From positions 1 through 12,566 of the forward strand of contig JAFGKO010000070.1 in assembly GCA_016928525.1 (NCBI GenBank): a stretch of 12,566 bases of DNA, in the 5' to 3' direction. Made by a program: the position numbers and the translations under genes. This document shows, in pieces, positions 523 to 12,566 of this stretch (position 1 is its first letter; each line of letters starts with the position of its first letter). This stretch comes from Anaerolineales bacterium. Its GTDB lineage: Bacteria > Chloroflexota > Anaerolineae > Anaerolineales > Villigracilaceae. The notes under the pieces were generated by a model, which had not been told where the DNA came from, made no database searches, and worked only from the letters and a program-made list of their open reading frames with translations.

Positions 523-1671
523 CTATAATTCCAACCGCTTCCCATTAGAGTCGCGCAATGCAATGGGGGATGATGTGCTCGAGTTCGCAACCAATTCAGA
601 CTCACCGCGCTGTCCTAAGACATGAATAGCTTCAGACACCACATCCACATCGCTATCCCGGAGGGCGTTACTTAAGACCGTTCGGTCAACAACCTGTTTC
701 TCTGCGCCGAAGTTCCTTATAGCTTGCCAGCGGATGAACCAGAACGGGTGATTAAAGGTCGTCTGAAAAACAAGTCCTGGCTCCTTGTCACTGTGACACA
801 ATGCCACTGCCGCGAGCATTTGTACTGCTCTATCTGAATGATCAAGGCAGGTTAATAAAAGCTGTGTGTATTCGAGATAGCGCAAGGCCAATACGGCTGA
901 ACGCCGGATACTGAAACAAGCATCATCTAGCATTCGCACAAGAAAGGTTTCACCGTCAAGTATATTGGGGAGGGCATCTGGGGAGACTGTTACCCCCATT
1001 CTTTCTTCGAATTCCCGTGCCTTCATATTAATATACTGTTCTGCTGCTGCCCATAGAGGATAGCCCCCCTGCTGGATTTCATTGAGAAACTGCCTTGCTC
1101 CCGGCCAATCTCCCTCATGCAAGCAGCCGTTGAACGCCTCAATCCATGTATACAGGCTCAAGCAGGCATTGATCTCGAACTGGCGGCGTATAGCATCCAA
1201 GGTATCTTCGATCGCTTCCCCTACTATCGGAATTTCGCGTACCCCATCACGCTCAATCATAAACGCGCGGAAGCGAAAATTGGCTTCAGCCTGTACCGTT
1301 ATATAGACTACTCCTGGGGGTACTTCCCAGGCAGCGAACAGATCCGCGACACGTGGGTTGGCGTTATTGTTTATGGATTGATAGATAGCGCTGACCTCAA
1401 GTCCGCTCTGTGAAATGTTTTGAAGAACTTCGTTACGGTGGTTCGGATCGGGTAAAAAACCCCGCGCGCTCCGTTCAGATTGAAGGAGATTATGCAGGGG
1501 ATAAGTGGCAATGCCTCGTCCGCTCTCCCCGGCCAGCAAACCATATGCAACGCGGGGTGCTTGCCCTTGAACGTGGCTCAAGATAGCTTTTCGAGCTTCA
1601 GACTCAAGAAAGTATTTTCCCAGCGGATCAGAATCTATAGAACGGAATCGTCGAAGAATTCTCTTTCTCAT
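523..1671 (-). CDS. Degenerate JAMM (MPN-minus) domain fused to HEAT-like repeats
   Basis: The product has 382 residues. Residues about 20-152 follow the layout of Mec/CysO-hydrolase-type JAMM peptidases: a helix, a GLLAG strand at 44-48, NLLQS at 61-65, GLEVSAIY at 90-97, then the metal-site region. There the expected His-x-His is replaced by Q98-S99-I100 and the expected Ser by R107, while D110 is kept. It should therefore not bind zinc or cleave isopeptides. Residues about 240-360 form HEAT-like helical repeats with motifs such as SIRRSAVLALRYL and DSDVDVVSEAIHVLG. This is the last gene of the operon, 18 bases after the TIR gene. A likely role, by analogy with eukaryotic MPN-minus partners, is as a scaffold for the active JAMM encoded two genes upstream. 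The start has only a weak ribosome site. The domain call is mine from the motif layout and was not checked by profile search. Confidence 0.72.
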   Translation of the reverse strand: MRKRILRRFRSIDSDPLGKYFLESEARKAILSHVQGQAPRVAYGLLAGESGRGIATYPLHNLLQSERSARGFLPDPNHRNEVLQNISQSGLEVSAIYQSINNNANPRVADLFAAWEVPPGVVYITVQAEANFRFRAFMIERDGVREIPIVGEAIEDTLDAIRRQFEINACLSLYTWIEAFNGCLHEGDWPGARQFLNEIQQGGYPLWAAAEQYINMKAREFEERMGVTVSPDALPNILDGETFLVRMLDDACFSIRRSAVLALRYLEYTQLLLTCLDHSDRAVQMLAAVALCHSDKEPGLVFQTTFNHPFWFIRWQAIRNFGAEKQVVDRTVLSNALRDSDVDVVSEAIHVLGQRGESELVANSSTSSPIALRDSNGKRLEL

Positions 1672-1689
1672 CTCTGAAACGATGCCCTA

Positions 1690-2388
1690 CTAACTTTCGT
1701 CACTACCGCCAGCCTGTTTGCGGATGGTAGCGACCACACGGTCAAGGCCGCGTTGCCATCGAGTGTAGTGCGAAAAATCTTCAAATATGAACGGCTTAAG
1801 CTGATCGGGCATTTCAACTTTTTCTCGCATCAAGGGTATCACACGGTTGCGAGAACTGGTTGGATCACGTGTAAGCACAAGCAGATTCTCAAAATTACCC
1901 CATTCGCTGGCCAACCATGCGGAGGTTACAACCAGTAGTGTCACACGGCACTCTCGGAGCGTCGCCTCAGTGATACTGCGAATAATAGGAGCGCCTACGT
2001 CAAAATCACGATCAGTTTTTACTGTGATACCGTGCTCTTGTAGCTTGGGAACCAACCATCCAAATATCCATTTACTGTTTTTGTGACTGTAACTGATAAA
2101 AACATCATGGGTGTATTGTGGGTTGGGCGGCTGGTTGCTAGGGGGCGGCTGTTCGATAGGCGGCGCAAGTTCAATAGGAGTCGGGGGCGCTTCTGTGGAT
2201 GTTGTTCCCTTTGATGCTTTGGTTGGGTCGGAAACTTCCGCCCACGTTTCAATCGCGCCATCAGTCTTTTGTAACGCTTGCTCGCGTTTCAAATCTTCCG
2301 GATTCCATGATGTAATCAAATCGTTGATCGATTGACTGCCCGGTATTATTTCAGGCTTGGAGGGAGCCTTCTTTTTGTTCCGCGCCAT
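1690..2388 (-). CDS. TIR-domain protein with a disordered N-terminal region
   Basis: With the start chosen here the protein has 232 residues. The first 90 or so are charged and then proline-rich and look disordered. A TIR domain follows, beginning at DVFISYSH, with the glycine-containing DFDVGAPI loop, then TSAWLASEW and a Glu four residues beyond that segment's Glu, in GNFENLL, the position of the catalytic Glu in NAD-cleaving TIR domains. NADase activity is thus plausible but unproven; a protein-binding role is the alternative. An upstream ATG at 2403 would add five residues, but GGAAGG (2396-2401) sits 7 bases before the ATG at 2388, and the upstream ATG has no ribosome site. The gene lies between the active JAMM and the dead JAMM-HEAT genes. 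TIR proteins in bacteria are commonly defence effectors or signalling adaptors. Confidence 0.85.
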   Translation of the reverse strand: MARNKKKAPSKPEIIPGSQSINDLITSWNPEDLKREQALQKTDGAIETWAEVSDPTKASKGTTSTEAPPTPIELAPPIEQPPPSNQPPNPQYTHDVFISYSHKNSKWIFGWLVPKLQEHGITVKTDRDFDVGAPIIRSITEATLRECRVTLLVVTSAWLASEWGNFENLLVLTRDPTSSRNRVIPLMREKVEMPDQLKPFIFEDFSHYTRWQRGLDRVVATIRKQAGGSDES

Positions 2389-2395
2389 TGCCGCA

Positions 2396-2401
2396 CCTTC
2401 C
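2396..2401 (-). promoter_or_regulatory. Ribosome binding site deciding the TIR start
   Basis: On the minus strand GGAAGG lies 7 bases before the ATG at 2388-2386. It overlaps the alternative upstream ATG at 2403-2401, which makes the downstream start the better choice. Confidence 0.65.
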
Positions 2402-2406
2402 ATTAA

Positions 2407-3498
2407 TTAGTAGAAGTATATCGTAGATATAGGGTCCAACTGATGCTGATTCCAGTGAAAAATAAGCGTATCGCGCCCGGCGTTGCCGATTACAAGCGCG
2501 ACATGCCAGGGGGCCTGCCATGTCCTACTATGAAAAGCCACGTCTTCCGGGCTTAAAAAGGGGGAATGCACAGGATGAGTATGATACCAACCCAGGGTAC
2601 GCCGACCTTTGTATTGCGTTTCCATAATCTTACTGAAGTCGTCCTCGTAACTAAAAGAAAGCGATATTTCATTTCCTGTGGCAGCTTTGGCCGGGATGTG
2701 ACCGTTAATCACAATGAATGGTTTCGTAGACTCGGCATTTCGGTGAGCCTGGCCGACTAACACGCCGCCAATTTCACGATCGGGTGTGTCGTGTGCCGCC
2801 TGGATGAGTTCTTTGAAAACTTTACGCTTGAAGAAGATCAATAATGCATCTTCTTTAGCGGAATTATTCATGGGTTGTGCGCGTCCTGAACGCGGGGGGG
2901 GCCGCTTGGTTAAGGTATTAATATCGTAAGTTTCTACGGCTCCTCCTATTGCCATCACTTCTTTAGAAATTATAGGAAACAATTCTTTTCCAGGGAAGCT
3001 TTCACCTCTACATAGGATCGCCTGATATTGGATGCCATTCGCTGTCGGCCATGCGCCCATAGATGTCAGATAGGTTCGCGCGCTGGCAAACCAGTTATCA
3101 AAAAAAGACAGTCGGATATTAGCAGATAGAGGCTGTTCTATTTCGCCTGTCGGCAGAATGGTCGCAAAATGAAGTGTAAAATAGTCCAGGGGCTGATCGG
3201 ATAAAGGGGATTCATCCCACATAACGCGCAGCCAGGGCAGTTCAGTGCGCGCCGCGTTCGTCCATATGTCTGCGATATGGGCCAAATCAAGATGAGCGTG
3301 TGAACCGGACGGATCGGCGTAACCCGGTTCTAACAAGGTAATCAACAAACTGTTGGAACGAAAAATCCCGCGTTGAGAAAATTTCTTAGCCAACCTCGCT
3401 ACAATCTCAGCTAAGACCGTCAGCCGCAAATCTCGTTCGTATATCAACTGGTTGCTGTCAGCATTTACCATTTTCAGGGTAAAGTAGTACATACTCAT
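2407..3498 (-). CDS. JAMM/MPN+ metallopeptidase with a long N-terminal region
   Basis: The product has 363 residues. The C-terminal domain (about 218-355) has an intact zinc peptidase site: E242 in REIGGVLVG, then H306-T-H308-P, S316 and D319. This is the signature of JAB/JAMM enzymes that cut isopeptide or peptide bonds after ubiquitin-like modifiers. The roughly 210-residue N-terminal region is not a known JAMM part. It contains two stretches (about 3-75 and 106-195) with a beta-hairpin followed by a helix that could be beta-grasp-like; this is tentative. A linker rich in Pro and Arg (about 199-210) precedes the peptidase. Its start overlaps the stop of the Ubl gene by ATGA, implying coupled translation with the likely substrate. 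No strong Shine-Dalgarno sequence is present, as expected for coupling. A second ATG lies at codon 3. Likely role: removal or maturation of the Ubl. Confidence 0.88.
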   Translation of the reverse strand: MSMYYFTLKMVNADSNQLIYERDLRLTVLAEIVARLAKKFSQRGIFRSNSLLITLLEPGYADPSGSHAHLDLAHIADIWTNAARTELPWLRVMWDESPLSDQPLDYFTLHFATILPTGEIEQPLSANIRLSFFDNWFASARTYLTSMGAWPTANGIQYQAILCRGESFPGKELFPIISKEVMAIGGAVETYDINTLTKRPPPRSGRAQPMNNSAKEDALLIFFKRKVFKELIQAAHDTPDREIGGVLVGQAHRNAESTKPFIVINGHIPAKAATGNEISLSFSYEDDFSKIMETQYKGRRTLGWYHTHPVHSPFLSPEDVAFHSRTWQAPWHVALVIGNAGRDTLIFHWNQHQLDPISTIYFY

Positions 3499-3803
3499 GA
3501 TCTTGCTGCCGTAGGTATATAGATGAGATACAAAGTCTCCGCGTCTTGAATTTGGGCTTGCTCAAGCGTATGCGCCGGTTCGATAACCACGTTATTTTTC
3601 TGGCGTTTGAAACGATATTCGTACCGGTTGCCCCTATGATCACTCAACTTATGATCAAAGCGGTGGATGGCAACGGTGGCCGCCAAATCTCCGGAAGGAA
3701 AGTCCAAAGGTAGTGCCAGGGGTAAGCTCGTTCTTTGCTGACTAATAAAGTCCACGACATGCACTTTTACACGCGGAATGTCATCAGAGTTATTTGGGGA
3801 CAT
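3495..3803 (-). CDS. YukD-like ubiquitin-fold small protein
   Basis: A 102-residue protein with a beta-grasp layout: strand at 12-20, strand at 27-33, helix near 36-50, and the closing segment TLEQAQIQDAETLYLIY at 79-95, which has the form seen in ubiquitin-like YukD proteins (a loop, a short helix, Asp, then the last strand). The tail after the last strand is only IPTAARS: there is no terminal Gly-Gly or even a Gly. It either is not conjugated by a classical Gly carboxylate or uses a different C-terminus. AGAAAGG (3816-3810) lies 6 bases before the ATG. It follows the duplicated-domain gene by 45 bases and overlaps the JAMM gene by 4 bases. YukD-like Ubls have been proposed as modifiers in prokaryotic E1-E2-RING systems, which fits this context. 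Confidence 0.75.
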   Translation of the reverse strand: MSPNNSDDIPRVKVHVVDFISQQRTSLPLALPLDFPSGDLAATVAIHRFDHKLSDHRGNRYEYRFKRQKNNVVIEPAHTLEQAQIQDAETLYLIYIPTAARS

Positions 3804-3848
3804 ATCGAACCTTTCTATGGACTGAACTGGTTAACCTGATCCAAGAAT

Positions 3849-4727
3849 CTACCAGTCAAAAACAACTACTTTGGGTGGGAGGAGATCGCCCGACTTTAGA
3901 AATTCCTCCAAGCGCTCACTGTTGGCGAGCAAAATCACTTCTTGAGAGAAACGATCGAGATAGGTCGCCATTCCTTGCATACACACATTGAACAGGGGAA
4001 AATCAAGCTGTTCTGTTGGGCATTGGATAGTGAGCATAATGTTTCCTTGCCCGGACAGCCGAAATTTTGCCATGATCATATAACGATTCAGATGGAGCAG
4101 GTAATCACAAATCGCTTCAAGGTGGGGGAGTTCACGTATCCTGATAGGAGATTGGAAATGGGTCCAATGAGCCGTAAAATGCATATACACGCTGTCAGGT
4201 TCCCCTCTATGGCCTCGGTATCCAAAATGCCAGCAACTGTCTTGTGGAGAATCGGCCAATATCCAACCGCTTACATTGATCTGGTATAAATACTGCCAGA
4301 TGCGTTCTTGGGGAATATAGAGCAGCATTTGGTTCGCCTGCTGTTCCGTCCCAGCATCTTCATCTCTGTATAAAGACTGCAGGGCTTGCGTGATCGTTGT
4401 CAAGAGAAGTTTGAATGCTGAAAAGGTCAAATGATTGGTGGGCCATTGCGCGCCAAGAATTGTGCGATTTTGAGCATCTTTATACAGTTTTGCCATCAGC
4501 AGGCGGCTATTGTGCCACAATATCGAAAAGTTGCTCTTTTCGGGAGGAATATCCATCAGAGTCCCGGCGTAAATCCAATTGGCGCTGAGGCTCACATCAA
4601 TCGGGAAGGCTTCGAACCCTCCGCAGACAGCACGCCAGCGATTTTTGTCGGTTTGCGATGACTGCCACTTGTCACACATCAATTCTGCAAAGTATTCGTT
4701 TATCAGTCCAGCCGTGTTCATCGTCAT
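3849..4727 (-). CDS. Unknown protein with an internal duplication, possibly YbjN-like
   Basis: A 292-residue protein that I cannot assign firmly. It contains two similar halves. Residues about 67-122 and 208-262 share the pattern of hydrophobics, Asn, four residues, then Met-Ala-Lys (N73 with MAK 78-80, and N214 with MAK 219-221), followed by a strand, a Pro-Thr turn (PTNHL, PTEQL), a Phe-containing stretch and a long helix. The layout resembles YbjN or type III secretion-chaperone-like folds, which bind other proteins; this is inference from pattern only. There are no catalytic motifs, signal peptide or membrane segments. The ATG directly abuts the E2 gene stop (TAAATG), so the two are probably translationally coupled. 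A second ATG at codon 3 is possible. It sits between the E2 and the Ubl, so an adaptor or chaperone role is a reasonable guess. Confidence 0.55.
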   Translation of the reverse strand: MTMNTAGLINEYFAELMCDKWQSSQTDKNRWRAVCGGFEAFPIDVSLSANWIYAGTLMDIPPEKSNFSILWHNSRLLMAKLYKDAQNRTILGAQWPTNHLTFSAFKLLLTTITQALQSLYRDEDAGTEQQANQMLLYIPQERIWQYLYQINVSGWILADSPQDSCWHFGYRGHRGEPDSVYMHFTAHWTHFQSPIRIRELPHLEAICDYLLHLNRYMIMAKFRLSGQGNIMLTIQCPTEQLDFPLFNVCMQGMATYLDRFSQEVILLANSERLEEFLKSGDLLPPKVVVFDW

Positions 4728-5246
4728 TTACTCTTGCTGAACCCCCCGGTCACGCAAGGGAGTAGTATCGAGGGGTATCGCGTCCGGGTGGTCCCTCACC
4801 CACGATGCCGCCCTTCGGGAGCGATCGGTTTTCCACATGTTTTCGAGTCGATAATGTTGTGTTGAGGTGAACTGAATCATATCTGCAATGAACTCGCAGA
4901 GATAGGCAATACGGATATTGGCTCCAAGGGGCGTTCCCTTGACACAAGGCCCCATCTCAATATCAATATTAGGATGCAAAATGGGTGTTTTCCATTGGAT
5001 CTCAAAGGAATCCTCGGCCAGGGGATAATTGGGATGGAGGATGATTTCGGCTTTATGTTCGTTACGAAACTGAGGAATACCATCAATAACATCCTCCAAT
5101 CCTTTGCAGCGAAAGGTCACTTCGTAGTGGGTAGGGGGGGAGTTCAAAACCGAAAAATCGAACCGAGAGCTTTCGGCTTTCAGTTGCTCCATCAATTCCA
5201 ATTCTTCTTGCAACAGTTTGCGATAATCCTGCTCAAAGGTGGACAT
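4728..5246 (-). CDS. E2 ubiquitin-conjugating enzyme-like protein (UBC fold)
   Basis: The product has 172 residues, close to a minimal E2. The family hallmarks are in order: an N-terminal helix (1-26), strands, HPNYPL at 71-76, WKTPILHPNI at 85-94 containing the HPN triad (91-93), then the putative catalytic Cys101 in GPCVKG, eight residues after the HPN motif, and C-terminal helices (114-150). The HPN Asn, which forms the oxyanion hole in eukaryotic E2s, is present, so this is one of the more eukaryote-like bacterial E2s. It would take the modifier from the E1-like protein and pass it to substrate, probably helped by the RING protein. A strong AGGAG (5258-5254) is 7 bases from the ATG. It lies 40 bases after the E1 gene, the second-longest gap in the operon. 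Confidence 0.88.
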   Translation of the reverse strand: MSTFEQDYRKLLQEELELMEQLKAESSRFDFSVLNSPPTHYEVTFRCKGLEDVIDGIPQFRNEHKAEIILHPNYPLAEDSFEIQWKTPILHPNIDIEMGPCVKGTPLGANIRIAYLCEFIADMIQFTSTQHYRLENMWKTDRSRRAASWVRDHPDAIPLDTTPLRDRGVQQE

Positions 5247-5286
5247 AATCCTGCTCCTTTTTCACCGTGACCGTGTAGTGGTGTCG

Positions 5287-6435
5287 CTATGCCCATTTCA
5301 TGATTTCGGCAGCATCTGTGCTGAGTTCATAAAAGCGATAATCCTCGCCGCGACGCGCCACGAGAATTTCCAGAGGGGGAATCCCCAGGCTACTTAAGGG
5401 TTGATCGATCTGTGCTGATTCGGGACCTAATGATTGCACATAGGTTGGCTGTCGCTGGGACTGGCAATGTGGACAACATCTGTGCTCCGCGACCAGATCA
5501 TCACGATCCAACCATAGGTCTTCGCTTTGTCCGCATACCGGGCAAACTAACCGGGTGACAACACTCCGTCCCAATTCGATGTGCGCCCCTGGGCCAAGAT
5601 CGCTCGCCGCCCATTCGAGTATATCACTGAGCGTATAATCTGAGGAAGAGGCAGGCAAATCAATGATCGGCTGATCGATATAGGCGCTGTGGCTAAAACA
5701 AACCGCCTGCCGATCGTAGTGAAGCGGACTGGCCTCGCCTTGCAGCGCATTAAAGTACCAACCAGATCCCCCATACACCTGCCCTCGCATCAGGTTCACC
5801 ATTTGCTGGACCATCATCGCGCCCGTCACGGAAGCTATCAATGGCGTGGTAGGGACCGAAGCACCCGCGCTCAACACGGACGGATCGCTGCACGAGTTCC
5901 GTTTCGGACTGAACGCTTGGCGGTCTTCAGGAGACATCGTGCATTCATAACAGGCCCCCTCGGGAGGTCGAAATACTTTCACGATGCCGATATGTTCAGA
6001 AATTCCCCCATCGATCCAGGGCGTGCCCGCCATCCAGCACCGCCGATTGATGTGATAGCGCGCTGCGACGTTATCCACACATCCAAAAACAACTTTGGCA
6101 CGCCGGAAAACTCCCGTTCCGATATGTCGCGAAACGTCGGCATTCATCGTCATGATGCGCACATCGGGATTGATTTGCCGCAGCGTTTCAGCAGCTACTT
6201 CCGTTTTGGGTTTCCCTTGATGCTCTGCGCGGAACAACACAGAGCGCGACAGATTCGATAGAGCAACACGGTCAAAATCAACCAGGATAACGAAACCGAT
6301 GCCTAACAGAGCAAGATTTTTGGCAACCTCGTTACCGAGCGCACCCACACCAGCCACCATAACAACTGCCTGCCGCAGGCTCTCCTGATCCCATCCTTCG
6401 ATTTGCCGCAGTCGTTCATAACGATCTTCACTCAT
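5287..6435 (-). CDS. E1/ThiF-family ubiquitin-activating enzyme with C-terminal zinc ribbon
   Basis: A 382-residue adenylating enzyme of the ThiF/MoeB/UBA class. Seen are the nucleotide-binding GVGALG (29-34), D53 in VDFDRV, the NLSR motif with R64 (61-64), K75/K77, and D121 in GCVDN. Zinc-binding pairs are CYEC (162, 165) and, in the C-terminal part, CPVC (298, 301) plus C321/C324. C182, in NSCSDP, occupies the area where ThiF-like E1s carry their transfer cysteine; this is tentative. The last 50 residues contain a short strand pattern that might be a small beta-grasp/UFD-like domain. Role: ATP-dependent activation of the modifier C-terminus and transfer to the E2. It overlaps the RING gene by ATGA at 6432-6435, so RING and E1 are translationally coupled. 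Confidence 0.92.
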   Translation of the reverse strand: MSEDRYERLRQIEGWDQESLRQAVVMVAGVGALGNEVAKNLALLGIGFVILVDFDRVALSNLSRSVLFRAEHQGKPKTEVAAETLRQINPDVRIMTMNADVSRHIGTGVFRRAKVVFGCVDNVAARYHINRRCWMAGTPWIDGGISEHIGIVKVFRPPEGACYECTMSPEDRQAFSPKRNSCSDPSVLSAGASVPTTPLIASVTGAMMVQQMVNLMRGQVYGGSGWYFNALQGEASPLHYDRQAVCFSHSAYIDQPIIDLPASSSDYTLSDILEWAASDLGPGAHIELGRSVVTRLVCPVCGQSEDLWLDRDDLVAEHRCCPHCQSQRQPTYVQSLGPESAQIDQPLSSLGIPPLEILVARRGEDYRFYELSTDAAEIMKWA

Positions 6436-7211
6436 ACCAGCGATCCTTCTGGTGATCCAAGAGAAAAGAAGGACAGCACCTTCTCGCGTACGTCATAGCC
6501 ACAATTAGGAGTCGGGCATGTTTTCAGAGAAAGCCAGCAAGCTTCATGGAAGGGCATTTTGCACTTTGGGCAATACGCAATTCGTCCTGATTGCGTCTTA
6601 TCGACGGCAAAGGGAATTTGATCCCAGTGATAACCGGGCTTGTGGTTACAGTATTTTCCAATCAATGGCGATTTAGGTGTCAACACTTCAAAGGCAAAGT
6701 CTTTTTGGAGGAACTTGACCAACAGGCTGCGATGCGGATAAGCACAGTCATGACGGCCACACCGTTCAGCGAGCAGCCAGCATTCCATATGGCTGGGCTG
6801 TCCGCAGCGGCATACAACAATTTCATCGTTTTCATTAAAGCCATGACGCAGTAGTTCGCAACGCGCGTCCAGGAAAGGCGATTCGGCCTGAATATAGCTG
6901 TGCTGGAATTCGGTGAAGAGCAGCGTTTGCTCGCCCAACGTTATCTGGTCTCCGTGACGGATGAATTTGTACTTATACACAGGAAACCCATTCACCTTTG
7001 TCGTCTCGCTCTCCTCTGCATGGTTAAGGAGGAGATAGCCTGGTGACTCAGGCAAATTGGTGATGGTAACATGTTTGGGTAAAACACCTGGTTTCTCCAG
7101 TGTATACTGGGCTTGATTCGAATCACTCCCGATGACAGCTTCCTGGTTCAACGCCCAGGGGATAGAAACACTTTGACGTGTACCGTCGTGCCAATAGATC
7201 AGTTCTGACAT
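6432..7211 (-). CDS. FHA domain plus two RING-like zinc modules, putative E3
   Basis: A 259-residue protein. Residues about 5-100 look like an FHA phosphothreonine-binding domain (VIGSDS near 26-31, KHVTI at 46-50, VNG at 73-75, HGDQITLGEQTLLF at 86-99), although the usual arginine and serine of the first binding loop are weak. Two RING/treble-clef modules follow with the same spacing: C136-x4-H141-x2-C144-W, C151, C156, and C217-x4-H222-x2-C225-W, C232, C237, with additional ligands C118, C134, C188 and C214. An FHA-RING fusion beside E1 and E2 genes fits a ubiquitin-ligase-like adaptor that would direct conjugation to phosphorylated targets. No kinase gene is in the window. AAGGA lies 8 bases from the ATG, 15 bases after pafA. 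RING fingers with E1, E2 and Ubl neighbours have been described in bacteria; the exact metal ligands need a structural model. Confidence 0.82.
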   Translation of the reverse strand: MSELIYWHDGTRQSVSIPWALNQEAVIGSDSNQAQYTLEKPGVLPKHVTITNLPESPGYLLLNHAEESETTKVNGFPVYKYKFIRHGDQITLGEQTLLFTEFQHSYIQAESPFLDARCELLRHGFNENDEIVVCRCGQPSHMECWLLAERCGRHDCAYPHRSLLVKFLQKDFAFEVLTPKSPLIGKYCNHKPGYHWDQIPFAVDKTQSGRIAYCPKCKMPFHEACWLSLKTCPTPNCGYDVREKVLSFFSLGSPEGSLV

Positions 7212-7226
7212 AAATAGTTTCCTTGA

Positions 7227-8906
7227 TCAGGAGAGTGCCGCATGCACCCGTCTACGAACAGCTATATGGGGGTCCAGAGTTGCCTGACGCAAAAGCTCTA
7301 TTGAGGTAGGTCTGAGACTCGTCAACGCTTCCACTGTTTGCACCCTAACCTTCCAGTCCGGATCGCCTAACCCGCTTGCTAACGCACGGCATCGGCGATC
7401 AGGGTCGAGAGAAAGCGAGGCAATAGCTTGCGCGGCGCGACCGCGTACTGAACTGATCGGCCCCTGCTGTAACTGCGTATGCAAAAACGCCAGCGATAAT
7501 TCAGCATCTGCGAAAGCGGCTAGGCCAGAACAAAAATCCAAAGGATCGTCTAAACTGATTCGCTGTCCGTTAATGATAATGGCGGACCAATCGGCTTGTG
7601 ACTGGAAATGATGCTCCCAAGACCATTTTACGTAGTTTCCACGAACATACGCACGGGTACTGGTAGGCGGCATATCAATAGCTCGTGACACAGCTGCGGG
7701 CGCTATTCTGTTAGCTAATGCGCCGTAGTGGACCACTCCATTATCTAGCAGACGGGGGAAAAGTCCCCGGCGTGGATCGATATCATGGTAACGTAAATCG
7801 AGCAAAGCCATGGTTGGGTTGTCCCAATTGATGCGGCTGACTCCTCGTTCAGTTTCAAGCAGCAGAAGCTTAATAACCCAATCGAGGCGATCTCCCATCG
7901 CAGGTGGATCGTATTTTAGATAGTCTAGTGCTTCTTGCCATTCAGCTATAATCAGCGCTTCTTCTGAATCGGACGATATGTCGCCAAAGAAATCTTTCAC
8001 TTTGTTAAGGTAGTCGCGCTGAATATCCAGTGCCGAACGCGCCACTTCGCGTCCCTTTTCACGTATCCGGATTTGTGCATGACGGCCATGATAGGACACG
8101 CTGCGCAAAGCGTGAATGGGATTAACCAACACAAAGTCAACGTCGAGTGCCAGGGCTTCGCACACGCTGAGGATCAGATGCGTGGTTCCCAATTTCATGA
8201 AGGTGCACCAAGCAGACATATTAGAATCGCCTACCAGGAGGTGCAGCCGACGATATTTCAGTCGATCCGCATGGGGTTCGTCTCGCACATTGATGATGGG
8301 CCGATAACGTCGAGCGTCTTCGGACAGAACCCCCGTGATAAAATCCGCCCGCTGCGAGATCTGGAATCCGGTTGTGGCTGGCTCGGAAAACCTGAGTGGA
8401 CTGACCAGCCCTGCCGAGCATAACAATGAGCGTGTAACCAGAAATGGCGCTAAACATCGCACCAGATAGTGAAAAAAAGCGTTCTCGTCTGGCAAATATT
8501 CGGTCAAACGGGGAACCAGATAATTCTCATGGCAACCGTAGGTGTGATTTCCACTGGTATTGTTTTTCAGCAGTGTTAATTGCCCGCCCAGTTGCTTTTC
8601 GGCCTCAGGAAGAGCGGCAGCGAGAAGGTGTTCTCCGGCGAGATCGTACAGCGTTGCCTCTGAAGGTGTCAAACATTCGGGCGTAGACCATTCAATCAAA
8701 CCCTCTGACGCCTGATGTGCCTCGTCATCAAAGTAGAATCTGCCCCCATTCGGCAGGAATACTGATGTTTCCGTTGGCGCGGCAACCTGAAACCGAGTAG
8801 CCATACTTTCGGCCAATGCCGAAAAGATAGTTTTCTGGCTTGGCTGTTCACCGTCCCCCTGCCAGATGGCGGCATACTCAGTTTCAAGGCCAAAAACTCG
8901 CGCCAT
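7227..8906 (-). CDS. pafA: PafA-like Pup ligase with C-terminal HEAT-like extension
   Basis: The product has 559 residues, about 100 longer than typical PafA. It has the carboxylate-amine ligase fold of PafA/Dop: GLETEY (6-11) for ATP/Mg, KNNT then YGCHENYL (114-130), QISQRADF (182-189), INVRDEPHAD (205-214) and GDSNMS (226-231). Segments such as SALDIQRDY and LDWVIK match PafA rather than Dop, hence the choice. It would join the C-terminal Glu side chain of Pup to target lysines. The catalytic-Asp segment is unusual: FYFDD (57-61) is followed by an insertion of about five residues, and the canonical HPEY is replaced by an IEWSTPEC version. Residues about 462-559 form HEAT-like helical repeats absent from standard PafA. 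The ATG is 5 bases after the pup stop, with a GGAG overlapping the pup end. Confidence 0.88.
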   Translation of the reverse strand: MARVFGLETEYAAIWQGDGEQPSQKTIFSALAESMATRFQVAAPTETSVFLPNGGRFYFDDEAHQASEGLIEWSTPECLTPSEATLYDLAGEHLLAAALPEAEKQLGGQLTLLKNNTSGNHTYGCHENYLVPRLTEYLPDENAFFHYLVRCLAPFLVTRSLLCSAGLVSPLRFSEPATTGFQISQRADFITGVLSEDARRYRPIINVRDEPHADRLKYRRLHLLVGDSNMSAWCTFMKLGTTHLILSVCEALALDVDFVLVNPIHALRSVSYHGRHAQIRIREKGREVARSALDIQRDYLNKVKDFFGDISSDSEEALIIAEWQEALDYLKYDPPAMGDRLDWVIKLLLLETERGVSRINWDNPTMALLDLRYHDIDPRRGLFPRLLDNGVVHYGALANRIAPAAVSRAIDMPPTSTRAYVRGNYVKWSWEHHFQSQADWSAIIINGQRISLDDPLDFCSGLAAFADAELSLAFLHTQLQQGPISSVRGRAAQAIASLSLDPDRRCRALASGLGDPDWKVRVQTVEALTSLRPTSIELLRQATLDPHIAVRRRVHAALS

Positions 8907-8911
8907 ACAGC

Positions 8912-9136
8912 TTATTCTCCATCCAGACCTTGCTCGGCCACCATGTTCACAAAATTCAAATCGCCCAACAAACGGCGATACTCGACCGTTTCCAGGGCTA
9001 CCTGCCTGTTACGCCGTGCAGGCGGCCAATTGGCCTGAGAATCTGCGTCTCCTTCAAGCAGGCGAGCTGGACTCTCAGTAACGTTGATCGTGGAGGTATC
9101 CACTGACTGCTGGACAAGTCGTCTTTTTTCTGGCAT
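8912..9136 (-). CDS. pup: Pup-like small modifier with a DGE C-terminus
   Basis: A 74-residue protein, in the size range of Pup. The first 45 residues are polar and probably disordered; a helical segment follows and the tail is NFVNMVAEQGLDGE. Canonical Pup ends in FVxxYVQKGG followed by Glu or Gln; here the penultimate Gly and terminal Glu are kept but the first Gly is Asp. A terminal Glu means no deamidation is needed before ligation. The assignment rests on size, tail and position between the Dop and PafA genes, and similarity outside the tail is low. A very strong AGGAGG (9147-9142) lies 5 bases from the ATG, consistent with high expression of a small modifier. Unlike actinobacterial loci, no prcBA genes follow. 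Confidence 0.82.
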   Translation of the reverse strand: MPEKRRLVQQSVDTSTINVTESPARLLEGDADSQANWPPARRNRQVALETVEYRRLLGDLNFVNMVAEQGLDGE

Positions 9137-9141
9137 ATTTT

Positions 9142-9147
9142 CCTCCT
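9142..9147 (-). promoter_or_regulatory. Strong ribosome binding site of pup
   Basis: AGGAGG on the minus strand within AAAGGAGGA, 5 bases before the ATG of the Pup-like gene. With the site before gene X it is the best match to the Shine-Dalgarno consensus in the operon. Confidence 0.75.
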
Positions 9148-9155
9148 TTCAAAAG

Positions 9156-10256
9156 CTACAAACGATGCATTATCCTGGCTACGAAACGTCGCGGCCTGGA
9201 TCCTGCGAAAAGCGGCAGCTTGCTTTTCAGGCTTCGTGATGGAATATGATATGTAGGGGCAGCCTCGACAGCCCTGTTCAATACACTTCGCACACCGGCA
9301 GCCAACAGAGGTTTTTTCAGCCGGTTGCGGGAAAAACGTCCACGGCACTGCTCTAGGTCATAATCATCTGTCGCCGCCCAAATCGCAAACTGGGCTACAA
9401 GGCTTTGCAGGCGGCGGGGCAATCTTCCTTCGGGATCGTTGTAAATATCGTGCTCGGTCAGCAAAAGCGCCTCGCCGGGTTTAAAGGAATAACCACTGTC
9501 CTCAAAGACATTATGGGTCAGGGCAGAGTCGAAATTGATGAGAGCCTGGTCGGTGAGAAACTGCTGAGGGGGTATACCCATCTGACAAAGAAGTTTAATC
9601 AGATCTTTTGGATCATATGTCCTCGTCAAGCTTTCCGATGACTCGCTCGATAAAGCAGATATACGACTGATTTGCGTGTCTATCTCCTCGATGGCCTGGG
9701 AAATGCAGCGAACCCAGTTGGCCCGCTCTTCGGGAAGAGGTTGCAGGCGATAGCCCATTTGCATCGTAGCGTGTGCGCCACGAGCCATGGTTTCCAGGTT
9801 GGTTCGCATCTCCCCAAGAACACGGTCGTTGTAGCCCATGGCCCGGCCTATCCGGTATAAATCCTCGACGTGAATCTGCATCCTGTTACCGGATTTGTCG
9901 AGAATATCTTCAATAGCATTTGGCATAAAGTTCTGCTGGCGGAGATAGGCGGCGGCGGAATTCTCATAAGGGGGGTTTCGTTCAGGCTGCAAACAAGCGG
10001 TATTGAGCCAAACCACCCGCGTTTCGAGTGGCTCCAGGTTCAGAACGGTGGACCGGATCACCGCCATGTCTTGAAAAGAGTGATTCCGAGGGGTGAACGC
10101 CGTACCCGGTTCAATGCGGACCTGGATGGGATAGTCCCGATTATTTCGAACCGTCACCCGAAGATGGGTGGTCGTGCCGTCGCCCGTAGCAGACACAAAC
10201 GCAGCATGTCCTTCTCTCTCAGCTTCGAACAGAGAATAACTTGGTATTTCAGCCAT
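9156..10256 (-). CDS. Unknown protein X between dop and pup
   Basis: A 366-residue protein I do not recognise. Residues about 20-90 look like an immunoglobulin-like beta-sandwich (alternating strands in HLRVTVRNN, YPIQVRIEPGTAF, then the LEPLETRVVWL turn and strand and a Cys). Residues about 105-210 are helical and may form a coiled coil. Residues about 260-335 include a further helical segment with AIWAATD, a motif also seen in proteins with such beta-sandwiches. The C-terminus is very basic (RSLKSK, SRPRRF, RIMHRL). No signal peptide or membrane segment is seen. The open frame could start at 10307, inside dop, but AGGAGG (10269-10264) points to the ATG at 10256. Its place between dop and pup suggests a Pup-pathway function, such as an adaptor or substrate; this is inference from position. 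Confidence 0.7.
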   Translation of the reverse strand: MAEIPSYSLFEAEREGHAAFVSATGDGTTTHLRVTVRNNRDYPIQVRIEPGTAFTPRNHSFQDMAVIRSTVLNLEPLETRVVWLNTACLQPERNPPYENSAAAYLRQQNFMPNAIEDILDKSGNRMQIHVEDLYRIGRAMGYNDRVLGEMRTNLETMARGAHATMQMGYRLQPLPEERANWVRCISQAIEEIDTQISRISALSSESSESLTRTYDPKDLIKLLCQMGIPPQQFLTDQALINFDSALTHNVFEDSGYSFKPGEALLLTEHDIYNDPEGRLPRRLQSLVAQFAIWAATDDYDLEQCRGRFSRNRLKKPLLAAGVRSVLNRAVEAAPTYHIPSRSLKSKLPLFAGSRPRRFVARIMHRL

Positions 10257-10263
10257 TGCCATG

Positions 10264-10269
10264 CCTCCT
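10264..10269 (-). promoter_or_regulatory. Ribosome binding site deciding the start of protein X
   Basis: A perfect AGGAGG lies 7 bases before the ATG at 10256-10254. An ATG at 10262 is too close to it (1 base), and the farther ATG at 10307 lies within dop with no ribosome site. Confidence 0.75.
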
Positions 10270-10282
10270 GATAAATGACGAA

Positions 10283-11614
10283 CTAATGCATACCGGGATC
10301 GGTCCAATCAAGCCGCCCGGCTGGACCATCCATATAGTCCCAATCGACTCGAAGGGGCTGATCATGATGATCCCGGATCGCTTGCGCCCTTATATGGGCG
10401 CGTGTGTTGGATGGTGGGTTGGTCATGCAATGTGCCACCAAGCTGTCATCAGTCAAAATAGATTGAATCCGGTTCTGGCTCTGTAAAGTGTAGAACAAAC
10501 TAGACCCGGGGTGAATATTGTGATAGCGAATATCGAACGCTTTTAACAGCGACGCGTCCCACCCAATACCTTCTTGCTCTCGTATCGTTTCGAGAAATGC
10601 CAATTTGATAGCCCAATCCAGTTTGCTGCCCAGCGCGAGGGGATCGGTACGCATCGCATCCAGGAGCGAGGACCACTCGACAGTCACACGCCGATCCTCA
10701 TCATCTGCGGGAGAGTGATCGAGAAAACGAATAACCATTTCGAGGAATGCAGATTGAATATCCACAGCGGTAACTACATCATCGCCGTAGATGCTGACAG
10801 GTGCAAACGGGTTGCGCGAAACCGATTGAAATGCCGCCACGGGGTCGCGTAGCGCCAAATGATCAGGATAGAATCCTTGTTCAAGCATACGGAGCACCAG
10901 ACGCGTCGTCCCGATTTTGAGAAACGTAGAGAATTCGGCCAGGTTCGTATCGCCCATTACGAGATGCAAACGGCGAAACCGAGAGCGGTCCGCCAGTGCT
11001 TCATCGCGCGTGTTTACAATGGGTCGGTTGGTGGTCGTTTCCAGGCCAATGGCTGTTCGGATGAAATCGGCCCGTTGAGAGAGTTGGTATCCGATCCAGC
11101 CATTTTCCCCACCCACACGTCCGGCTCCGCTAATGATCTGCCGGGAGGTTAAAAAGGGGATCAGGGCCTGGTAAAGTTCCGGTCCTCGTTGGACAATCAA
11201 CTTCTCAAACAACGAAGAAGAAATCAGATAATTTTCATGGCATCCCCAGGTATGACCGGCGTAGTCAGTATTGTTTTTATAGAGGGTCGGTATCCACCCC
11301 TCTGGCAGACGATCCCGCATCGTTTCACAGCACGCGCGCATGAGGAGCTCGCCCGCTTTATCGCACGCCACCAGGGATGTCAAATCGCCACATTCAGGCG
11401 TTGAATATTCAGGGTGTCCTAAATCGTCGTAGAATCGAGCGCCGTTACTGAGCATGGCGTCGGTAGCCGAACCGCAGCTTAGAATATTCAGTCCGGGGAA
11501 AACTGAAGGGTATTGGGCTACCATCTGTACTGTCATCGGGCGGGGATCGATTTTTTCTCCTCCACCACCTTCAATGACCAGCGCATATTCAACTTCAATT
11601 CCCGCTATGGACAC
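10283..11614 (-). CDS. dop: Dop-like depupylase/deamidase
   Basis: A 443-residue PafA/Dop-family enzyme starting with GTG. Motifs: GIEVEY (5-10); NGARFYDDLGHPEYSTPEC (57-75) with D64 at the catalytic Asp position; YKNNTD (112-117); WGCHENYL (123-130); QLSQRADF (177-184); INTRDE-like VNTRDE (200-205); GDTNLAE (221-227). IGLETT and GDTNLAE match Dop rather than PafA. Dop removes Pup from substrates and deamidates Pup-Gln; because the neighbouring Pup already ends in Glu, depupylation should be its main role. The region before NGARF is shorter than the long loop of mycobacterial Dop. AGGAG (11627-11623) lies 8 bases from the GTG, 25 bases after the ATPase gene. The order arc-dop-X-pup recalls actinobacterial arc-dop-pup, with X inserted. 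Confidence 0.88.
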   Translation of the reverse strand: MSIAGIEVEYALVIEGGGGEKIDPRPMTVQMVAQYPSVFPGLNILSCGSATDAMLSNGARFYDDLGHPEYSTPECGDLTSLVACDKAGELLMRACCETMRDRLPEGWIPTLYKNNTDYAGHTWGCHENYLISSSLFEKLIVQRGPELYQALIPFLTSRQIISGAGRVGGENGWIGYQLSQRADFIRTAIGLETTTNRPIVNTRDEALADRSRFRRLHLVMGDTNLAEFSTFLKIGTTRLVLRMLEQGFYPDHLALRDPVAAFQSVSRNPFAPVSIYGDDVVTAVDIQSAFLEMVIRFLDHSPADDEDRRVTVEWSSLLDAMRTDPLALGSKLDWAIKLAFLETIREQEGIGWDASLLKAFDIRYHNIHPGSSLFYTLQSQNRIQSILTDDSLVAHCMTNPPSNTRAHIRAQAIRDHHDQPLRVDWDYMDGPAGRLDWTDPGMH

Positions 11615-11622
11615 GCTGTTTA

Positions 11623-11627
11623 CTCCT
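11623..11627 (-). promoter_or_regulatory. Ribosome binding site supporting the GTG start of dop
   Basis: AGGAG on the minus strand, 8 bases before the GTG at 11614-11612, which begins the conserved GIEVEY N-terminus. No ATG lies between this site and that motif. Confidence 0.7.
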
Positions 11628-11639
11628 GCTCACTCGTCG

Positions 11640-12566
11640 TCAGAACATGTCCGGGGGAGTATCATTCCAACGATCCTCGACCTGAGTCGCCCAGCGCACG
11701 GATACCGTAATATCATCGATGGAAGGGCGGCGATAGTCTGTATCCTGAAATTCCAGTAGATTCACGACAAAATGTTCCTTGTTTTCTTCGTATTCCTGGT
11801 TAAGGGCCTCTTTCAGCGTATCTAGAGAAATGCGCCCAATGTCTCCTGTAGGCGGGCCTTCTGCGGAGTCTTGTGTCAGGCCTATTTCGAGAATCCATAG
11901 TTCGGCGGCGGCCTTTTTAGCTCTGGTGACCACGCTTTCGAGAATCGCCCCACTGGCAAACTGGCGTGCCGGGAGGATCAACCGTTCGCCCCGTTTTTGC
12001 GTGACCTGAATGTAACTCCGTTCATCATAAAGGATTTCGATCAACTGGCGCGCTAGTGTTGAAACATCCCCTGTGGTTGGCAGATCGGGTAAAAGGTACT
12101 TCAAGAGAATCTCAACCGCTGCATCGTTATTGGGACGGTCGATTTTTATTTTTCGATCCAGTCGCCCCGGACGCAACAGGGCAGGATCAATCAGTTCAAC
12201 CCGATTGCTGGCTCCAATCACAAGGACATTGCGCAACTCACGAACGCCATCTAGCTCGGCCAGAAACTGCGGAACGATGGTTTTCTCAACGTCGCTCGAA
12301 ATGCCACTTCCACGAGTCTGAAACATGGACTCAATTTCGTCGAAGAAAATAATGACAGGGGTATAAGGGCCAGAGGACCGCCGCGCTTTTTCAAAAAGCT
12401 TGCGAATCTTGTGTTCCGTCTCGCCTACCCATTTGGTTAGCAGCTCCGGGCCGCTGACGTTGATAAAGAACGCTTTGGGCTTAGAGCGTGTTATGTACTT
12501 TTTACCCCTATCCCCCGGCCCCTTTCCCCGTAAACGGAGAAAGGGGAGACGCGCAAGTCCCTCTCC
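11640..12566 (-). CDS. arc: ARC/Mpa-type proteasomal AAA ATPase (partial, 5' end missing)
   Basis: The frame is open from the right edge to TGA at 11642-11640, giving 308 residues. From about residue 29 it matches ARC/Mpa closely: the FFINVSGPELL strand and KWVGE pore loop (45-49), Walker B IIFFDE (72-77), the RTRGSGISSDVE stretch typical of ARC (84-95), sensor VIGASNR, and arginine fingers in LLRPGRLDRKIKI. The Walker A motif, oligosaccharide-binding domains and N-terminal coiled coil that binds Pup are outside the window. The first 20 or so residues come from a palindromic repeat and do not look like ARC sequence; the frame stays open across it. The C-terminus ends in PPDMF and lacks the GQYL-type tail that docks Mpa to the 20S proteasome. 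Role: ATP-driven unfolding of pupylated, or otherwise tagged, proteins. It is the most promoter-proximal gene seen in the operon. Confidence 0.88.
   Translation of the reverse strand, partial: GEGLARLPFLRLRGKGPGDRGKKYITRSKPKAFFINVSGPELLTKWVGETEHKIRKLFEKARRSSGPYTPVIIFFDEIESMFQTRGSGISSDVEKTIVPQFLAELDGVRELRNVLVIGASNRVELIDPALLRPGRLDRKIKIDRPNNDAAVEILLKYLLPDLPTTGDVSTLARQLIEILYDERSYIQVTQKRGERLILPARQFASGAILESVVTRAKKAAAELWILEIGLTQDSAEGPPTGDIGRISLDTLKEALNQEYEENKEHFVVNLLEFQDTDYRRPSIDDITVSVRWATQVEDRWNDTPPDMF
12505..12566. repeat. C/G-rich palindromic repeat at the window edge
   Basis: The run of C-rich blocks contains a hairpin: CCCCTTTCCCCG (12519-12530) and CGGAGAAAGGGG (12535-12546) pair over 12 positions with one mismatch around a TAAA loop. 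C-rich hairpin repeats of this style are frequent and dispersed in Chloroflexota genomes. It lies inside the open frame of the ARC ATPase, where the family has a variable loop between Walker A and the pore-loop strand. Its base composition differs sharply from the adjacent coding sequence. Copies elsewhere cannot be seen in this window. Confidence 0.6.

Follow-up and report, generated by a model that had tools for sequence, protein, structure and literature searches.

Protein tagging by Pup and by ubiquitin-type modifiers is the textbook case of one job done by two unrelated chemistries. Each has familiar bacterial representatives—on one side the actinobacterial-type Pup-proteasome locus (ARC-Dop-Pup-PrcBA-PafA), and on the other a family of RING-E1-E2-Ubl-JAMM cassettes built around a ubiquitin-like protein (Ubl), which was reportedly described by Burroughs in 2011. 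In the open-licence papers searched, we found a coupling of the two in one sentence only, in the relevant passages of a 2020 eLife paper (PMC7159879), which mention, for Thermofonsia and planctomycetes, Pup conjugation to which a Ubl system is coupled. As excerpted, that paper suggests a tie to target degradation and places related Ubl systems among conflict systems; this brief report reduces the novelty that a preliminary description of the present locus had implied for the pairing. Here we analyze a 12,566-nucleotide stretch of DNA (the window) that encodes predicted proteins of both pathways.

Gene content of a cluster with Pup and Ubl components

Thirteen genes, all on the minus strand, make up the cluster, and its 12 junctions are spaced from -25 to +45 bp according to ORF calls, with start codons as given by the ORF finder. 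The cluster is likely a single operon carrying both tagging machineries, as had been proposed at the outset; the tight junctions and the recurrence of the pairing elsewhere support this reading. Family matches (Pfam/NCBIfam) and ORF coordinates upheld the strand and order of the nine genes originally named (ARC, Dop, Pup, PafA, FHA-RING, E1, E2, Ubl, and JAMM), but that list omitted four others—two unannotated genes (up to 383 aa and 292 aa) and, at the end of the probable operon, a TIR-domain protein and a JAMM-like protein with HEAT repeats. Promoter-like sites in the window numbered 12 against 13.5 expected and terminator-like sites 18 against 12.7 expected (sd 4.0), and none of the RNA families and tRNAs searched for was found there. 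GC content by gene ranged from 0.49 to 0.54 between ARC and E1, and was slightly lower (0.47–0.50) from E2 to the last gene.

The Pup half begins with the 3' part of an ARC/Mpa-type AAA+ unfoldase (11640..12566; 308 aa), the ATPase expected of a pupylation system, recognized by TIGR03689 (E=2e-78) and AAA (1.7e-27). Its TIGR03689 score (264 bits) stays under the cut-off of 505 owing to truncation of the gene by the edge of the window, and a full-length relative in genome G308 (E=1.3e-74) likewise falls below the cut-off. The window ARC ends in NDTPPDMF and thus has no G[QH]YL tail, a feature carried by all ten canonical ARC ORFs (from 14 loci) and by none of the five ARCs adjoining Ubl cassettes (those of the window, G308, G217, G245, and G286). 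Queries with PrcA and PrcB gave no match in the window or in locus L116, and none better than E=0.2 in locus L106. Within the window, neither mark of a Pup-proteasome locus was found, as genes for PrcB and PrcA and the G[QH]YL end of ARC are both missing there; given that canonical prcBA loci are present elsewhere in the G308 and G217 genomes and that the window is one contig, a 20S core may nonetheless be involved.

Downstream lie the Dop-like depupylase (10283..11614; 443 aa; Pup_ligase 2e-125) and the PafA-like Pup ligase (7227..8906; 559 aa; Pup_ligase 1e-109), the latter with C-terminal HEAT repeats (HEAT_2 1e-6). Both score below the NCBIfam cut-offs of either family, with the Dop ORF scoring higher against Dop than PafA (355.6 vs 320.8 bits) and the PafA ORF higher against PafA than Dop (322.9 vs 302.6 bits), and each falls on its own side of the tree (84/86 for Dop). 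Their motifs are intact and canonical, comprising GhExE, Asp, [HQ]x[NH], and [QH]x4D as defined in PMC2588565. The same source describes Pup as a protein of 50–90 residues with a C-terminal G[EQ], encoded next to PafA. Between Dop and PafA, 5 bp before the latter and behind an AGGAGG, we found a 74-aa ORF ending in GLDGE (8912..9136), which we regard as a candidate Pup-like protein from its position, length, and Gly-Glu end; no Pfam or NCBIfam model matched it at E<=10, and it aligns to canonical Pups only with gaps. The remaining gene of this half (9156..10307; at most 383 aa) has no family match above cut-off and no counterpart at its position in G308 or G217, and its called TTG start could be replaced by internal ATG starts. 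What had been called a full Pup pathway is represented by Dop, PafA, a Pup-like protein, and an ARC whose 5' end is cut off, with no proteasome core genes found in the window.

The Ubl half opens with a protein combining an FHA domain (23.7 bits, cut-off 20.7) with two RING-like zinc motifs (6432..7211; 259 aa), matched in two stretches by Prok-RING_1 (40.2 bits, cut-off 29.1). Its Cys/His residues are invariant across seven aligned sequences; these are the features of a RING-type E3, and a ligase role is predicted from them. The E1-like ThiF enzyme (5287..6435; 382 aa; ThiF 3.5e-50) carries C-terminal zinc-ribbon-like CxxC pairs and a candidate catalytic residue, Cys182; all 12 E1s in the alignment have a Cys at that position, give or take one column. 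The E2-like protein (4728..5246; 172 aa) matches Pfam only weakly (E=0.024), but its HPNI motif and Cys101 are invariant among relatives, and structural comparison of its AF2 model also gives E2s; the window has both an E1 with adenylation domain and Cys and an E2 with UBC fold and Cys. Next comes the 292-aa unannotated protein (3849..4727), which has no confident Pfam match and an AF2 model with a pLDDT of 37.5; G308 and G217 likewise have an unannotated gene between E2 and Ubl. An assignment as a T3SC/YbjN-like chaperone was rejected, with Pfam giving E=0.093 only and hhalign a probability of 0.6% against the correspondingly placed genes of G308, G217, and G245.

The YukD-like Ubl (3495..3803; 102 aa) scores below the YukD cut-off (24.1 bits, cut-off 27) and was found by a profile of the Ubls of five relatives (E=2.4e-4). 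Its tail, PTAARS, has Ala (TAA-RS) where nine of ten relatives—all except that of G275—have Gly, and trimming would not leave the C-terminal Gly expected of a Ubl, so conjugation may be impaired. In the neighboring JAMM/JAB metallopeptidase (2407..3498; 363 aa), Prok-JAB matches at 6.9e-9 (36.0 bits, cut-off 25), Glu242 and the HxHx7SxxD motif (H306-H308-S316-D319) are intact, and its nearest solved structures are those of STAM-binding protein/AMSH. Just 3 bp further on lies the TIR-domain protein (1690..2403; 237 aa; TIR_2 5.8e-19), in which we take Glu172 to be the candidate catalytic residue; its best PADLOC match is PDC-S66 (4.3e-10), and it is probably an effector or signaling component. 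The last gene (523..1671; 382 aa) encodes HEAT repeats (HEAT_2 3.2e-8) and a JAMM-like domain that matches the Desampylase model (E=1.2e-4; 21.9 bits, cut-off 130), has no HxH or SxxD motif, and gave no BLASTP match to the JAMM protein.

Occurrence of the pairing beyond the window

Relatives of FHA-RING, E2, PafA, and Dop (P0004, P0012, P0120, and P0132) all lie on a single 36,068-bp metagenomic contig. Two further genomes, G308 and G217, from a class that includes Myxococcota-named MAGs, each encode a ten-gene hybrid cluster, RING-E1-E2-x-Ubl-JAMM-ARC-Dop-Pup-PafA (x, unannotated), with the modules of the window but its halves in opposite order. Their cluster proteins share 40–64% identity with each other. 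In both, HEN is replaced by HES and GD by GE in PafA, and the motifs of Dop deviate as well, so that the Pup arm of these genomes may have changed or lost its function. On the E1 tree, grouping the window E1 with those of G308 and G217 was rejected (p-AU 0.0007). For PafA and Dop, in a tree that left out the partial sequence P0012, one origin in the two hybrid lineages was not rejected, and separate origins of these enzymes are unsupported (p-AU 0.158 and 0.494).

These cases support the association put forward in the preliminary description as real and recurrent, and they make it very unlikely that chance or a chimeric assembly produced it. An assembly artefact would fit the single metagenomic-type record and the slight GC drop from E2 onward; against it, the 36,068-bp contig, G308, and G217 all carry the pairing too, and we give this explanation practically no weight.

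A Pup half beside E2 was seen in only two of the 17 E2-positive genomes in the phylum sample that includes G308, and genomes G541, G243, and G301 have Ubl cassettes and no Pup ligase anywhere in the genome. Within the class of G308, four of the five E2-positive genomes (G308, G217, G245, and G286) have an ARC-like ATPase directly after JAMM; the fifth, G107, has no ARC adjoining JAMM, although both E2 and a canonical Pup locus are present. Since the contigs concerned in G245 and G286 lack a Pup ligase, the unfoldase accompanies the Ubl half too.

The window PafA alone gave 13 pattern matches and no relatives among GTDB genome contigs, and the FHA-RING alignment 25 pattern matches and no relatives among viral contigs. 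Among the window proteins other than PafA and Dop, AAA alone had matches (E<=0.01) in the best 80 of at least 590 confirmed PafA loci from genome contigs, a screen with little power for distant E2s, and Prok-RING_1 was found in none of the 21 genomes screened from these loci. The E2 profile matched none of 95 genomes in the phylum of G010, one of 396 in that of G009 (a short match with internal stops), and two of 295 in that of G017 (G541 and G624, neither with a Pup ligase).

Possible roles of the paired pathways

As the leading explanation, though with confidence short of even, we take the window for a tagging system with two inputs, Pup and Ubl, which would both lead to a shared ARC unfoldase. 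E1 would charge Ubl, which E2 (through Cys101) and the RING protein would place on targets, with JAMM both trimming Ubl and taking it off again; in parallel, PafA would link the Glu side chain of Pup to lysines and Dop would reverse this. ARC, undocked from the 20S core, could then remodel or extract the tagged proteins, with the TIR protein as a regulated client or effector. Of the consequences suggested earlier, two tags feeding one unfoldase gains some indirect ground from the ARC-like ATPase after JAMM in four of the five E2-positive genomes in the class of G308, in two of them on a contig that lacks any Pup ligase; crosstalk between the pathways is plausible, and for mixed chains we found no supporting evidence.

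A simpler account, to which we assign a minor share of probability, is co-regulation only: two independent pathways under a common promoter, needed in the same condition, each with its own substrates, and ARC serving Pup alone. Cassettes in genomes without any Pup ligase fit this account, as does the absence of window E2, E1, or RING matches (E<=0.01) from the best 80 of at least 590 PafA loci, weak as that screen is for distant E2s, but it sits poorly with a pairing that recurs with reversed halves and non-grouping E1s, and with an ARC-like ATPase after JAMM at two loci on contigs without a Pup ligase. The position of the TIR gene invites another interpretation, an unlikely one in our estimation, in which the cluster is a defense or cell-suicide switch with the TIR effector at its center, restrained or released by the tagging arms upon infection or damage. 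In G541, whose cassette is Pup-free, a TIR gene likewise lies, by eye, at ~5 kb from E1, and related Ubl systems have been counted among conflict systems, as noted above; yet no TIR was noticed on a by-eye reading of the G308 and G217 hybrid clusters, and PADLOC has no model for the window E2, Ubl, FHA-RING, or Dop at E<=0.01.

Two further readings are less probable. Pup could regulate the Ubl arm, with PafA pupylating the Ubl enzymes and ARC turning them over, as transcription order and an ARC common to both halves might suggest; we consider this very improbable, as no sequence feature marks the Ubl enzymes as Pup targets and the reversed gene order gives no hint of hierarchy. A more elaborate form of joint reading, which we regard as distinctly improbable, is a coincidence code: Pup and Ubl on the same proteins would be read jointly by a proteasome-free ARC, doubly marked complexes, including TIR, would be dismantled or armed without degradation, and bacteria would have assembled the pairing on more than one occasion. 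Whichever applies, a recurrent two-tag cluster around a tail-less unfoldase makes the question of one reader for two tags testable in bacteria, along with that of an ARC ATPase serving an E1-E2-E3 system, and the ARC-plus-Ubl loci of G245 and G286 are candidate bacterial counterparts of ubiquitin plus unfoldase.

Comparison with described systems

Bil/Bub/CBASS-type Ubl systems share the adenylation domain of E1 (PADLOC E1-E2 2e-20, BilD 3.8e-10; BubCD structures 8e-8), with matches confined to the fold of that enzyme. FtsH-ternary systems have vWA, MoxR, and a double FtsH-type ATPase, none of which is among the Pfam matches of the 13 window proteins. ARC, Dop, Pup (in the window, a Pup-like protein), and PafA follow one another in the actinobacterial-type locus as they do in the window; the window differs in having no prcBA, an ARC without G[QH]YL, HEAT repeats on PafA, and an adjoining Ubl system. 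The cassettes of G541, G243, and G301 have Ubl, E2, RING, and JAMM as in the window, with E1s 38–40% identical over their full length to that of the window, but unlike it have no Pup ligase. Comparable by description are the coupled systems of PMC7159879, whose passages on them give no gene list, order, or mechanism and whose coupling sentence does not name Myxococcota; in those systems, as in the window, Ubl and Pup conjugation are encoded together.

Gene content of the window cluster

The window carries 13 genes, all on the minus strand and separated by twelve junctions spanning -25 to +45 bp, a tight arrangement that bears out the preliminary description of a single cluster carrying Pup plus E1-E2-RING-Ubl-JAMM genes. 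Their order is ARC ATPase (3' part), Dop, a 383-aa ORF, a Pup-like protein, PafA-HEAT, FHA-RING, E1, E2, a 292-aa protein, a YukD-like Ubl, JAMM, TIR, and a JAMM-like protein with HEAT repeats. The -25 bp junction holds if the 383-aa ORF starts at TTG; ATG at internal codons 16 and 18 would abolish this overlap. The ARC gene is truncated at the window end, and the first ~27 residues of its ORF at 12480-12566 (GEGLARLPFLRLRGKGPGDRG...) resemble no ARC in any frame and are similar to an interspersed repeat close to where the contig ends.

PafA and Dop kept all motifs examined (GhExE, Asp, TPE, KNN, HEN, RRLHxxxGD, and TRA) and were placed on the PafA and Dop sides of a 41-row tree with moderate support (84/86), while the JAMM protein displays the motif residues Glu242 and H306-x-H308-x7-S316-xx-D319. 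The Pup-like ORF, which matched no family model, was assigned because of its place, its length, an AGGAGG ahead of its start, and its Gly-Glu end. The E2 scored below the Pfam threshold (E = 0.024), but it shares invariant HPNI and Cys101 with four close relatives, and adding four distant E2s leaves both invariant. Its AF2 model (pLDDT 77.2, pTM 0.73) matched ubiquitin E2 structures in Foldseek, with 48 chains at E ≤ 0.001 and probability 1.00 throughout the 50 matches listed, yet with query-length TM-scores of only 0.44-0.54.

Recurrence in metagenomes and genomes

Among ~5.8 billion proteins, the FHA-RING had six relatives besides itself (7 hits from 172 candidates), and the metagenomic search with the E2 returned four (5 hits from 14 candidates), with an NCBI source shown for none. 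Four relatives of PafA lie at 50-57% identity and the next at only 34-39%, among the best 120 of 3672 matches from at least 8000 candidates. Because their contigs are equal in length, we infer that several of these proteins share a contig: relatives of FHA-RING (P0004), PafA (P0012), Dop (P0120, Dop-like), and E2 (P0132) each come from a contig of 36,068 bp, those of FHA-RING (P0002) and PafA (P0009) from one of 2,803 bp, and those of FHA-RING (P0006) and E2 (P0131) from one of 6,297 bp.

In genomes, Prok-RING_1 matches occurred in 17 of 377 members of the phylum of G001 (four over the cut-off) and in 2 of 295 from that of G017 (one over the cut-off); one genome, G146, has 12 such matches over ten contigs, an expansion of bacterial RING-like proteins. 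Reading the loci with these matches led to genome G308, whose class also contains MAGs named Myxococcota (loci L002 and L003) and gave E2 profile matches in 4 of the 90 genomes covered (sample limit 350), with a second profile adding G286. Pairing of an E2 with a Pup ligase beyond the window, envisaged in the preliminary description, was found in G308 (contig C43) and G217 (contig C12), where comparison of gene order showed the two halves reversed relative to the window. Both contigs encode, on one strand and in identical order, ten genes—FHA-RING, E1, E2, a fourth protein, Ubl, JAMM, ARC, Dop, Pup, and PafA-TPR—with junctions, for the chosen starts, of -11 to +68 bp and -14 to +91 bp, respectively. 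Nine of the proteins share 43-64% identity between the two genomes and the one between E2 and Ubl 40%; their E2s are related to that of the window (hhalign probability 98.3%, E = 1.6e-14), and residues 18-479 of the G308 ARC align to TIGR03689 (E = 1.3e-74, below the cut-off). In both, the E1 looks circularly permuted (L106:6410-7537 in G308, L116:9239-10402 in G217), the C-terminal half with zinc-ribbon-like CxxC pairs coming first and the Rossmann half with a candidate Cys last. Of the 17 E2-positive genomes in this phylum sample, all searched for a Pup ligase, 6 have one, and in two of them, G308 and G217, it lies no more than 8 kb from the E2; in G275, the two genes sit on separate small contigs, from which linkage is not readable.

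The PafA of G308 and G217 reads RCN, HES, GE, and GRA against the canonical KNN, HEN, GD, and TRA, and their Dop motifs read GADFE, HLN, and ARLH. Judging from these motifs, both genomes may have a changed or inactive Pup arm, so a conserved gene set does not amount to conserved chemistry. Both Pups have a GGQ C-terminus, and of the two only that of G308 touched the Pfam Pup model (E = 0.047). Pup-ligase-like ORFs in L122 (G245:C361) and L125 (G275:C659) carry hydrophobic stretches after an HES or QEN motif. PMC2588565 gives the features defining Pup and PafA, describes similar hydrophobic stretches in Pup-ligase-like proteins of Plesiocystis and Rhodopirellula, and notes that in both of these Pup occurs unlinked to proteasome genes.

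A graded series and the origin of the pairing

Ubl cassettes (RING-E1-E2-Ubl-JAMM) form a graded series: G541, G243, and G301 have them in genomes without any Pup ligase; G245 and G286 encode an ARC-like ATPase directly behind JAMM, with no Pup ligase on the same contig; and full hybrids comprise G308, G217, and the window together with its contig relatives. Such a gradation favors the unfoldase as the shared element, although G107 is a counter-case, with an E2 and a canonical Pup locus yet no ARC adjoining JAMM. A third Pup ligase of G245 lies on its own 3.4-kb contig, where linkage to the cassette is not readable.

In a 12-row E1 tree with long branches, 2 of 9 inner branches starred, and the permuted E1s entered in rearranged order, Pup-free cassettes were nearest to the window E1, and grouping it in one clade with the E1s of G308 and G217 was rejected (p-AU 0.0007). 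A common origin of the hybrids was not rejected by the PafA and Dop trees (p-AU 0.158 and 0.494). Either the Ubl half has therefore been exchanged for another, or joining of the two halves took place at least twice.

Several cassettes have further features, with domains read by eye. The Pup-free cassette of G541 (L107:4054-11882) contains E1, RING, Ubl, E2, two JAMM proteins with hydrophobic segments, a vWA-RING, and an FHA membrane protein; a TIR gene lies ~5 kb away (L107:17163-17903) and a second E2 ~13 kb away on the same contig. Right behind the RING-E1-E2-JAMM-ARC cluster of G245 are a second small Ubl-like ORF, a JAB-like ORF, and a second ThiF-like E1 (L118:13604-16200), and the E1 gene of the G243 cassette has an in-frame TAG (L108:5955-5957).

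Ubl and ARC tails, and comparison with known systems

The window Ubl ends ACG-GCA-GCA-AGA-TCA-stop (TAA-RS). A profile built from the Ubls of five relatives found ten Ubl ORFs in cassette loci at E ≤ 4e-6, including the five builders, and the window Ubl at E = 2.4e-4; two still weaker matches (G353 and G381) were left out of the tail count. Nine of the ten have a tail Gly, preceded by Ala in eight (G308, G217, G541, G243, G301, G107, G245, and G030) and by Leu in G286. Ala for Gly in the window, seen at one locus, may weaken charging, or may be a sequencing error or a genuine change. The exception among the ten, in G275 (L124:2190-2573), ends in …MEHIPA, a possible parallel to the Ala-Ala tail of the window.

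The G[QH]YL tail docks ARC onto the 20S core. It ends all ten canonical ARC ORFs found in 14 loci checked and is missing from all five ARCs beside a Ubl cassette (window PPDMF, G308 YLHAS, G217 YYNAA, G245 RLRAA, and G286 ELERAS). PrcA/PrcB queries, which recovered both genes at the canonical G308 and G217 loci, gave no match with E ≤ 1 either in the window or in the hybrid locus of G217; in that of G308, nothing scored better than E = 0.2. ARC would therefore unfold or remodel proteins with no direct transfer into a 20S core.

Ubl-Pup coupling is real, rare, and recurrent. In the open-licence literature searched, it appears once, in one sentence on Thermofonsia and planctomycetes (eLife 2020, PMC7159879), a paper whose accessible passages offer no characterization. 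The window extends this with TIR and JAMM-like genes joined to the coupled cluster, while the G308 and G217 clusters have their halves in reversed order and an apparently circularly permuted E1.
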